Source: an uncultured Eubacteriales bacterium
GTDB lineage: Bacteria; Bacillota; Clostridia; Peptostreptococcales; Anaerovoracaceae
Length of the DNA: 64,000 nt
NCBI GenBank assembly: GCA_902763505.1
Contig: CACWSO010000011.1
Coordinates: 1 to 64,000, forward strand
Reading direction: 5' to 3'
Position numbers and translations under genes: made by a program
Shown: in pieces, positions 20,160 to 51,763 of the stretch
Numbering within the stretch: position 1 is the first letter of the stretch
Layout: each line of letters starts with the position of its first letter
Notes under the pieces: generated by a model
What the model was told of the DNA's origin: nothing
Databases searched by the model: none
The model's input: only the letters and a program-made list of their open reading frames with translations

Positions 20160-20515
20160 GGGGATGCACTGGTTTCGACGGGGGTGTGGAAACTGGATAA
20201 GCGAGCCGAAGTCGCCCAGTCTTCGTAAAAAGGGGCCGTTAAAGATAAACGCAAAAACTAATAATAATTTCGCACTGGCAGCTTAGTTCTGCCCCGCGCG
20301 CACGCCTGAGCTCACCTGCAGGCCCAGTGCCGTGCGTCAAACATGCAGGAAAACCTTATGCGTTCTCCCGGCCGCATAAGGGACTAACGGGATAGTCCTC
20401 CCGGCAGTTCGTTTCCGGACGGTCAGAAGGGCGAATCTCAAATCGGAAACTGCGCTCGGAGAAATTCCGGTGAAAATGCTTTCGGACATGGGTTCAATTC
20501 CCATCATCTCCACCA
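20160..20515 (+). ncRNA. ssrA: Transfer-messenger RNA
   Basis: tmRNA of 356 nt. The 5' acceptor strand GGGGATG (20160-20166) pairs with CATCTCC before the terminal A and CCA (20513-20515). The conserved 5' GGTTTCGACGGGGGTG and the T-arm GGGTTCAATTCCC (20490-20502) are present. The tag reading frame at 20251-20286 encodes AKTNNNFALAA followed by TAG. It rescues stalled ribosomes with SmpB. Its last six bases are the phage crossover core and also encode the final tryptophans of the integrase on the other strand. A short hairpin (AAGGTG/CACCTT, 20135-20153) lies just upstream and may help 5' processing. Confidence 0.97.
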
Positions 20516-20534
20516 ATTAGAGTTCTGGTCGAAC
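20487..20534. other. attL: attL (ssrA end joined to the phage P' arm)
   Basis: Left junction. The core CCACCA at 20510-20515 follows the tmRNA acceptor stem. The phage arm to its right (20512-20534) ends in GGTCGAAC, the inverted match of GTTCGACC at 51696-51703 beyond the other end. Confidence 0.8.
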
Positions 20535-21961
20535 TCGACGAGATCCTCAAGCTCAAGCGGCTCAACGCCGGAAAGATTGAGCTCAATGAGGATCTTTTTT
20601 TGTTTTTTGACGACCTTGCGGACAAAGGCGTCGATGATCCTCTGATTGTGTTTGACTTCATCATCAAAAGAAAATCCGGACAGGAAAGCAAGGATTCCAT
20701 CCTTCAGTGCTTCCGGATCCTGCAACGGATCAGGACGGCGGTCTCCGGAACTGATAGCGATCTCGGCACGCAGCTCCTCACGTTCAGCCTCCAGCTCGTC
20801 CAGTTTATTCAGCAGGGCGTCAGATCCGGGACGCTGCGACAGATTGTAGACCAGAGCGTCCAGCTGTTTTTCAATTCGTGCGAGCTTCTTCTCGGGCTCC
20901 ATGGCTGCCGGGGGCGCATCTTTCTTTTGATATTCGCAGAGCTTCTGGGCAATCTGGTCCAGAGCCTCCGGATCTATAAGAGCATCTGCGACCTCAGAGG
21001 CAATAAATGACTCAAAATCTCTCGCCGGGAGATTCGGTGCAGTGCATCCTTTTCCGGTGCATTTGTAATAGTAATGCTTCTGGCCAGTGTGACTGGTGCC
21101 AGAGATTCCTTTGTAATTGGATCCGCACTCGCCGCAGAACAATTTACCTGAAAGATAGTATTCAGCACTTGGCGGGCGTCTCTTTTGATTCTTTTCCATC
21201 TTTTTTTGTACCATGTAGAACAAATCCTCCGGAACGATGGCGGGCATGCCATCTTCGATAGTAACGTCTGACCATTTATACTCACCAATGTACCGTTTGC
21301 TTGTCAGAAGCCGTCTAATGGCCTGTCCGTTATGTAAATTGCCTCTGCCGGTACGAATATCATGTTCACCGAAATAACGCGAGATATCGGCGAATGTGGC
21401 GCCCTCAAGATACATCTCAAAAGCATGGACCACATGCGGAGCGACATCCGGATCGATCTCGTACTGCCGGTTCTCGCCGATGCGGTACCCGATAGGGACA
21501 GTCGAACCAGTCGATTTCCTTTTGAGAGCGGTATCATGCATACCGCGCAGGATCTTTCGTGACAGCTCCTCGGAATAGTACTGAGCCCATCCCTCCATCA
21601 GAGCTTCCAGAAGTATCCCTTCCGGTCCTTCCGGGATGTTCTCTGCAGCATACCTGATCTGCACACCGCAGTCCTTCAGCTTGCGCTTGTAGATAGCACT
21701 GTCATATTTGTCGCGGCTGAAGCGGTCTGTGGTATAGACGACGAGCACATCAAAAGCGCCGGCTTCCGCATCAGTGATCATCTTCTGGAACTCAGGACGG
21801 CGATCAGTACGGCCGGTGATGTGCCGGTCAGCATAGATGCCGACCAGCTGCAGCTTATTCTTTTTTATGTACGCCTTGCACTCGCGGACCTGTCCTTCGA
21901 TAGACTGATCTGTCTGGCCGGATCCTGCAGAATAGCGGGCGTAGATAACAGTTCGATTCAT
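20504..21961 (-). CDS. int: Large serine recombinase (phage integrase)
   Basis: 485 residues. The resolvase domain carries the nucleophile in YARYSAGSG (Ser10) and the arginine motif TTDRFSRDKYDS near residue 70. A recombinase domain follows (IGYRIGENRQYEIDPDVAPHV), then a zinc ribbon (CGECGSN...CTGKGC, near 275-310) and a coiled-coil (340-390), as in phage large serine integrases. The last codons NWW lie on the att core and the final Arg plus stop are ssrA sequence, so this is the attL form of the protein. The start at 21961 overlaps the upstream lipoprotein stop (TAATG). It is the last gene of the repressor operon. Confidence 0.95.
   Translation of the reverse strand: MNRTVIYARYSAGSGQTDQSIEGQVRECKAYIKKNKLQLVGIYADRHITGRTDRRPEFQKMITDAEAGAFDVLVVYTTDRFSRDKYDSAIYKRKLKDCGVQIRYAAENIPEGPEGILLEALMEGWAQYYSEELSRKILRGMHDTALKRKSTGSTVPIGYRIGENRQYEIDPDVAPHVVHAFEMYLEGATFADISRYFGEHDIRTGRGNLHNGQAIRRLLTSKRYIGEYKWSDVTIEDGMPAIVPEDLFYMVQKKMEKNQKRRPPSAEYYLSGKLFCGECGSNYKGISGTSHTGQKHYYYKCTGKGCTAPNLPARDFESFIASEVADALIDPEALDQIAQKLCEYQKKDAPPAAMEPEKKLARIEKQLDALVYNLSQRPGSDALLNKLDELEAEREELRAEIAISSGDRRPDPLQDPEALKDGILAFLSGFSFDDEVKHNQRIIDAFVRKVVKKQKKILIELNLSGVEPLELEDLVEFDQNSNWWR
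20541..20608 (+). terminator. Phage-supplied terminator for ssrA, antisense inside the integrase gene
   Basis: AGATCCTC (20541-20548) pairs with GAGGATCT (20587-20594), with inner GCTCAA/TTGAGC pairing, then a T-rich run (20594-20608). It points in the ssrA direction while the DNA encodes the integrase C-terminus on the other strand. It would replace the ssrA terminator that integration moved to 51726. Confidence 0.8.
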
Positions 21962-22872
21962 TATTCCATTGTACTTTCCATCTTGCCGGTATCCGGATAG
22001 AGGTTCCATGAGCCGAGAACCATTCCGCCGCCGAGAGTGCTGGCATCATGTTCCTCACCGTCTACATATTCCGTTGTCGTAACAGCGACAAGACCGCCAA
22101 GATCAGAGATGCAGGTGGTAGTATTCGTCGAGACATTCACGACATAGTGGACGGTATCACCGGACTCAAAACACGTCTTGTAGTAATTGTACGCGTAATC
22201 TTCAGCAGTGATCCCGGACTGAGCGATCATACAATACTTCCAGCTGCCGGTGGTATCGTTGCGGACGGACTGCGGATGGACAGAATCCTTTATACCCTTG
22301 ACTGAATAGTCCCCACCACCGAGATCTTCGCCATATTTTGAAACCGGGGCTGCAGTCGTCGTAGTTTCTTCTTCAGCAGGTGCCGGATCATCGACAACAA
22401 TAGAATCAATAACCGCCTGATAATCACCAGTATAGTCAGCATCAGAATCAATGTTTGTTCCCATCCAGATACCAACAGAACCCTCTTCTGTATCGAAAGC
22501 AACAACGTCAACATTCTGCGTTTGGTCCTCAAGGGGAACAGTAGCGGTGAAACGGTAGCCATCATGGTCATCGATTGTGATGGCATCAGGGTCAGAGACA
22601 AGTTCACCTCCGCCTTCAAGGAGTCCATCAACGAAAGCGTCAATATCATCATTGATTGGATCCAAGCCCGTCATTATGAGAAGCGTCCCGTTAGGAGGGT
22701 AAAATCGCGCTGTACCTGATGAGGCTTCTGACAGGTCAGCATCCCAGGAAGAGGGGACACGAAACGATATATTGCCAACGGATTCAAAGTTCACGTCATC
22801 TGATTCACTGCTTCCGCAGCCGGAAATGACAAACAGCGCAATGAACATGACAAGGATAACAACTCTTTTCAT
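21961..22872 (-). CDS. Prophage lipoprotein in the lysogeny operon
   Basis: 303 residues with a lipoprotein signal peptide: MKRVV, a hydrophobic core and lipobox VISGC (Cys19). Residues ~25-165 resemble a PsbP/Mog1-like surface fold (FRVPSSWDADLSEASSG, DHDGYRFTATVPLEDQT). A threonine-rich linker (EEETTTTAAP) follows, then a second domain (~185-303) with two cysteines. It lies between the repressor and the integrase, has ribosome site GGAGGCG, and is expressed with them from the lysogenic promoter. Lipoproteins at this position in other temperate phages (for example Ltp of Streptococcus phage TP-J34) block superinfecting DNA; that role here is inference from location and topology, not sequence similarity. 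Confidence 0.8.
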   Translation of the reverse strand: MKRVVILVMFIALFVISGCGSSESDDVNFESVGNISFRVPSSWDADLSEASSGTARFYPPNGTLLIMTGLDPINDDIDAFVDGLLEGGGELVSDPDAITIDDHDGYRFTATVPLEDQTQNVDVVAFDTEEGSVGIWMGTNIDSDADYTGDYQAVIDSIVVDDPAPAEEETTTTAAPVSKYGEDLGGGDYSVKGIKDSVHPQSVRNDTTGSWKYCMIAQSGITAEDYAYNYYKTCFESGDTVHYVVNVSTNTTTCISDLGGLVAVTTTEYVDGEEHDASTLGGGMVLGSWNLYPDTGKMESTME

Positions 22873-51577: not shown

Positions 51578-51652
51578 AGAGGGGAGACACCCAACAACAT
51601 TTAACTATTGCACCTGGTTGTTTTGGCGTTTTTGTGCACTCCCCTCTTTTTT
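51578..51652 (+). terminator. Terminator of the phage late operon
   Basis: AGAGGGGAG (51578-51586) pairs with CTCCCCTCT (51639-51647), then TTTTT. The 52-base loop is itself structured (CCAACAAC with GTTGTTTTGG). In the unintegrated phage this DNA would also encode the end of the longer integrase on the other strand. Confidence 0.82.
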
Positions 51653-51695
51653 ATTGTAGACAGAAACGAGCACGGCGGCCGGCCCGCAGATCAGG

Positions 51696-51743
51696 GTTCG
51701 ACCGGATGTTAAAATGGACCACCATGACAACAACGAGGGTCCA
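51696..51743. other. attR: attR (phage P arm joined to the original ssrA 3' flank)
   Basis: GTTCGACC (51696-51703) and the rest of the P half-site (to 51718) precede the core CCACCA (51719-51724). The sequence from 51725 onward is host DNA and starts with a terminator-like hairpin that would directly follow the tmRNA CCA in the empty chromosome. Confidence 0.78.
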
Positions 51744-51763
51744 ATGGGCCCTCGTTTGTTGTC
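51726..51763 (+). terminator. Displaced original ssrA terminator hairpin
   Basis: GACAACAACGAGGGTCC pairs with GGCCCTCGTTTGTTGTC (one bulge, one wobble). It begins two bases after the core that matches the tmRNA CCA end, so before integration it sat directly behind ssrA. T-rich only within the descending stem. Confidence 0.7.

Follow-up and report, generated by a model that had tools for sequence, protein, structure and literature searches.

A prophage in ssrA with its attachment site inside the integrase gene: a C-terminal tail that may serve only the free phage

When a phage carries its attachment site inside its own integrase gene, does the enzyme that performs integration differ from the one left in the lysogen, and does the difference matter? 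The window analyzed here, a stretch of 64,000 nucleotides from an uncultured Eubacteriales bacterium, raises this question. The region between its two CCACCA cores resembles a tailed phage: six of ten scanned proteins matched PHROG families (repressor-like regulator, ParB-like protein, terminase, portal, tape measure and endolysin), and the other four had no match. The minus-strand integrase frame that starts from the ATG at 21961 has 485 residues and ends in NWWR, its R codon and TGA stop being antisense ssrA; with an alternative start at 22009 the protein would be 16 residues longer (501). Joining the prophage ends in silico yields an integrase of 521 residues, in which WW is followed by 37 more, SILTSGRTLICGPAAVLVSVYNKKEGSAQKRQNNQVQ, up to a TAG at 51605-51607. 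The preliminary description had contrasted a 485-residue prophage form with a 521-residue form in the circle, and the joined junctions bear this out. Because the insertion point lies inside the integrase gene, the extra tail is encoded in the free phage and lost from the inserted one, and it follows from the junctions that the free genome can make the long integrase only, and the lysogen the short one only. Three Pfam domains, PF00239 (Resolvase), PF07508 (Recombinase) and PF13408 (Zn_ribbon_recom), score above cut-off in the integrase; all lie 5' of the junction and are retained in the lysogen form. The openness of the extra frame is unremarkable by itself, as 37 open codons have a probability of about 17% by (61/64)^37. 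A gene of 303 residues (21961-22872, minus strand) adjoins the integrase start and matches no PHROG family. The features of the locus are collected in Table 1.

Table 1. Features of the integrase-ssrA locus, in window coordinates
Feature	Position	Strand	Basis
ssrA (tmRNA), target gene, called intact	20160..20515	+	tmRNA call
Large serine integrase, lysogen form, 485 aa, end NWWR-stop	20504..21961	-	Pfam Resolvase, Recombinase, Zn_ribbon_recom
attL core CCACCA at the end of ssrA; CC at 20510-20511 inferred as crossover dinucleotide	20510..20515	.	sequence, attP symmetry
attP half-site P', ends GGTCGAAC; encodes last integrase residues before the junction	20512..20534	.	sequence, layout as in relatives
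Terminator-like hairpin and T-run facing ssrA, within the integrase 3' coding end	20541..20602	+	fold, conservation
Integrase frame continuation, phage side, 37 codons and TAG	51605..51718	-	joined prophage ends, relatives
Tail codons 9-19 (LICGPAAVLVS), outside the attP palindrome, coding-type substitutions	51662..51694	-	five-tail comparison
attP half-site P, starts GTTCGACC; encodes tail residues 1-8	51696..51718	.	sequence, layout as in relatives
Core CCACCA at attR	51719..51724	.	sequence
Terminator-like site beside the other half of attB, probably the terminator that ssrA had originally	51732..51756	+	scan; directly follows ssrA in the empty site

Joined in silico, the half-sites of the window give the attP GTTCGACC-15-CCACCA-11-GGTCGAAC. 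This 48-bp palindromic site, with exact 8-base arms, is also present in two viral contigs carrying close relatives of the integrase (L007 and L015), and in Dulem virus 37 and locus L102 of a sister clade. A further sister locus, L103, has the same layout with seven of eight arm bases and so falls outside a scan for exact 8-base arms. The palindrome is centered on CC, which in the close clade falls within the second W codon. A predicted unoccupied site was found in one genome of the same genus (G328:C1:3186-3388; bases 1-203 of the 222-base joined query match at 99%), where ssrA is immediately followed by TGACAACAACG; the ssrA-flank pattern matched two of 28 loci and is uninformative for the remaining ones. 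For serine integrases, the available passages of one study place the zinc-domain motif 5 bp nearer the center in attB than in attP (PMC3783163). Measured by eye from the start of GTTC to the central CC, the distance is 23 bases in attP; at the ssrA half-site, as at the site occupied in genome G333, it is 18. The 5-bp displacement is thus seen at the ssrA half-site, and is not clear in the other attB half. The target may be broader than ssrA. In G333, the integrase frame of L006 ends NWWSIGGSNP inside a tRNA-like 3' end, a site at which ARAGORN called no tRNA and where a T-arm followed by CTCCACCA was recognized by eye only. This integrase (L006:7700-7760; G333:C4 near 6891) is 90% identical, and the ssrA match of that genome lies elsewhere. 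An insertion there despite the ssrA match suggests that any T-arm plus CTCCACCA may be a target.

Is the long form a property of this one prophage? It is seen directly, beyond what the junctions imply, in two circular-looking contigs: in L007 (32,287 bases, 141-base terminal repeat) the long frame runs without interruption as NWW-SSLTSGRTIVCGPAVVLVSSYTKKREAAQ, and in L015 (35,663 bases, 127-base terminal repeat) as NWW-TSLTSGRTLICGPAAVLVLQLAS. Two lysogens complete the close clade. In G277, inserted in ssrA, the integrase ends NWWR on a contig shared with L008, and the distal junction gives the phage side SSSSFGRTLVCGPAAVIVSNYPN; in G333 the distal junction gives SSLTSGRIIVCGPAVVLVSAYDKKQKKALDMPGP, although the two prophage ends lie on different contigs, so that their belonging together is inferred. 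The tail is therefore absent from all three close-clade lysogen ends (window, G277 and G333) and present in both free-phage contigs. Past the core, the phage side stays open for 37 codons in the window, 34 in G333, 29 in L007, and 23 in each of L015 and G277, and none of the four readable relatives has the early stop that would have spoken against the proposal. The five tails share the motif GR(T/I)(L/I)(I/V)CGPA(A/V)V(L/I)V, and their C-terminal ends vary (QVQ, AAQ, LAS, YPN and PGP); of the 37-residue extension, about 19 residues after WW are kept and the remainder is not. By eye, none of the five ends carries an ssrA-like AA or degradation tag. Searches further afield added little: viral scans with the tail alignment and with L107 and L111 as queries returned only contigs already found, the last 85 residues of L007 had no match in the phage collection, and five weak tail matches (G100, G338, G083, G298 and G257; E 0.02-0.05) were dropped as chance after reading.

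Conservation of the first eight tail codons proves nothing about the protein, since these codons are attP DNA; their variable sites (2, 4 and 4 of 8 at codon positions 1, 2 and 3) bear no codon signature. Codons 9-19 lie outside the palindrome, and there the five tails vary at 3, 2 and 11 of 11 sites at the three positions, that is, at 11 of 11 third positions against 5 of 22 others (hypergeometric P 2.3e-5, a value that is indicative, as are all P values from only five related sequences). Such a pattern favors selection acting at the protein level; by codons 20-22, conservation is already poor. Mean BLOSUM62 similarity is 4.24 in the integrase frame, a value reached by one of 5000 column shuffles, against 0.91 and 1.63 in the other same-strand frames; the three opposite-strand frames score 1.59, 3.77 and 1.68. 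One opposite-strand frame thus scores nearly as well, the two frames having their third positions in common; we think that it is not a gene, because in the window a TAG closely precedes it and no start codon occurs ahead of the palindrome. From these comparisons, the phage-only tail of the close clade looks selected as protein, and its retention in close relatives suggests a job in the free state only.

Structure prediction gave no fold for the tail. The AlphaFold model of the 513-residue L007 long form (17-row alignment, mean pLDDT 74, pTM 0.35) contains, in its C-terminal part, helices at 355-376 and 381-404, which would be consistent with the coiled-coil helices of a large serine integrase, and a last strand at 456-461, and its pLDDT is below 50 over 464-513; in the L102 model, pLDDT is below 50 over 490-524. 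In the models, the tail is thus beyond the predicted folded part of the integrase; as few alignment rows carry the tail, it may yet have a small fold. A beta-hairpin docked on the enzyme, suggested by patterns like FVFPYGIVLAFEM, was considered and is not claimed, because both models leave the tail unresolved and some look-alike tails are possibly translated terminators.

The sister clade, with integrases about 40% identical, was read from Dulem virus 37 (a circular record, 41% identical, with the palindrome in frame) and from seven retrieved loci, L102 to L108, the last of which (26%) was left out of the reading. The core falls on W-W codons, the arrangement proposed as a check in relatives, in the close clade only: the sister clade reads (A)STK from the other strand. 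Of the three loci with the palindrome, two carry a hydrophobic tail: after GRT, Dulem virus 37 continues QGSTIFVFPYGLVLAFELKASRS and L102 PGSTVFVFPYGIVLAFEMKTDRS. Over 23 codons these two differ at 6, 2 and 10 sites by codon position, with eight synonymous and six non-synonymous codons; the L102 record has no terminal repeat, and one of its downstream proteins matches Dulem. In the third, L103 (5458-5512), the near-palindromic attP is followed two codons past its second arm by a TAA and then by in-frame RFAFIGVCV, so that the expected lack of an early stop fails in one of three. The arm is lacking in L104 (2/8) and L105 (3/8), which have a stop soon after the core, one codon after it in L105; the L106 frame is interrupted before the junction; and L107, with no arm (3/8), nevertheless has an open tail of similar look. 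Proteins downstream of the integrase in L103, L104, L105 and L107 did not match Dulem or L102, and a 39-residue sister tail had no match in 393 genomes of the order and retrieved only Dulem itself from the phage collection. By sequence comparison, a selected phage-side tail is therefore supported in the close clade, and less firmly in the sister clade.

Tails supplied by the host are found more widely. Integrase frames overlap tRNA or tmRNA genes called by ARAGORN at L008, L026, L040, L042 and L095, and L016 reads into an apparent antisense tmRNA (by eye); a host-encoded integrase tail is thus recurrent. The serine integrase frames running into tRNA-Met (L026 and L040), tRNA-Ala (L042) and tmRNA (L095) speak against the older view, in which tRNA genes are not among the targets of serine integrases. 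In two Faecalibacterium phages, Lelie and FP_Toutatis, the printed integrase residues are nearly the same up to the junction and diverge after it. The FP_Toutatis end reads by eye as an antisense tRNA; Lelie is tentatively taken as the phage form.

An attachment site within the integrase gene has precedents, and the enzyme described here is, judged from its gene, of the kind known from phage Mx8 and the rumA integrative and conjugative elements (ICEs): its own att lies in the gene and its C terminus changes on integration. In streptococcal rumA ICEs the att site is likewise in a serine integrase gene, integration alters the length and sequence of the C terminus, and the authors suggest a functional difference between the forms (PMC4701971); those elements are ICEs targeting a protein gene, whereas the present element is a phage in ssrA or a tRNA-like 3' end, and the available passages do not describe the tail on the element side as conserved, as it is here in the close clade. 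In Mx8 of Myxococcus xanthus, attP is also within int and the lysogen integrase has another C terminus, with altered specificity or lower activity according to the accessible parts of two reviews (PMC6070905, PMC4701971), but the enzyme is a tyrosine integrase, of which 112 residues are replaced by 13. Mycobacteriophage BPs, in the portion of the report at hand (PMC4557955), has attP inside another regulatory gene, the repressor rather than the integrase; as here, the viral form is longer than the prophage form (by about 33 residues), and it is degraded, with an ssrA-like tag at its C terminus that the present tails lack. Archaeal SSV-type integrases also contain their att site, yet in the passages available integration splits their gene and cuts off its catalytic part (PMC8371274), while here only the tail is lost. 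What appears to be added in this clade is a selected phage-side tail of a serine integrase; our literature search, whose coverage left out most subscription papers, found no paper on such a tail.

How might the tail act? We lean slightly towards an integrase that carries attP in its 3' end, alternates between long and short forms by integration and excision, and uses its tail only in the free phage. This reading builds on the junctions, the empty site, the long frame in circular-looking relatives and the selection-like conservation of the close-clade tail. Crossover within the second W codon would swap the last codons of the gene, so that integration would turn the long integrase into the short one and excision the short into the long. 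We infer that each form is produced and can recombine, and that the tail would be a flexible hydrophobic appendage which, in the free-phage state, either lowers the stability or amount of the integrase or biases it towards attP x attB; its loss would leave the lysogen an enzyme for maintenance and for later excision assisted by the recombination directionality factor (RDF). The Mx8 and BPs precedents indicate that both kinds of effect, on activity or specificity and on degradation, exist, and we only slightly prefer stability or amount. Direction in serine integrases is usually ascribed to the RDF; a tail that exists only until the phage integrates would add a second directional input, one that erases itself. 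The naturally occurring long and short integrases are ready-made constructs for comparing the forms, and relatives show the arrangement again.

The same junctions would be expected if the tail were a mildly useful part of the complete protein, both forms recombined alike and the exchange were a by-product of attP lying beside the integrase. Unrelated tails encoded by the host are common in relatives, which implies that short or foreign tails are tolerated; the early stop of L103 and the predicted position of the tail outside the folded domains point the same way. Such an absence of any switch is nevertheless, in our view, unlikely, though a serious contender, given the codon-level conservation in the close clade and the comparable hydrophobic tails of Dulem virus 37 and L102. 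Alternatively the stretch might be conserved as DNA (an extended attP, a site bound by some factor, or an RNA element), as would suit the first eight codons and a weak minus-strand terminator-like site listed at 51688-51671, but variation concentrated at third positions outside the palindrome makes this improbable. Least probable, and very much so, is a suicidal-type integrase, disabled by integration and leaving prophage exit to the help of another element: archaeal SSV-type enzymes act so, and excision by an exogenous integrase is described in the accessible text (PMC8371274), but here the three Pfam domains and the last confident strand of the L007 model lie 5' of the junction, and no internal stop interrupts the short frames of the window, G277 and G333. 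We therefore continue to favor a state-dependent tail that would limit or direct the integrase before integration.

The same gene end may have a further role on the other strand. Integration displaces ssrA's own terminator-like site by 31 kb, which makes a phage-supplied replacement likely, and the hairpin opposite the integrase 3' end is probably that replacement. With its T-run, 20541-20595 folds to -25.3 kcal/mol (z -4.39, with none of 200 shuffles as stable); cut four bases short, the same hairpin has a z of only -1.56, and a simple terminator scan with a loop limit of 3-8 listed nothing at 20541-20602. Taken together, a gut-Clostridia phage clade may remove a selected hydrophobic tail from its integrase by its own integration, separating an integration enzyme from a lysogen or excision enzyme, while the same gene end carries a replacement ssrA terminator on the other strand; we offer this composite account tentatively, as possible but short of an even chance. 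The hairpin is kept in L006, L007, L008 and L015; an alignment of four sequences has a compensatory change at one of 20 pairs and a single broken cell among 80. That change belongs to L015 and falls together with a change of E to Q in the integrase.
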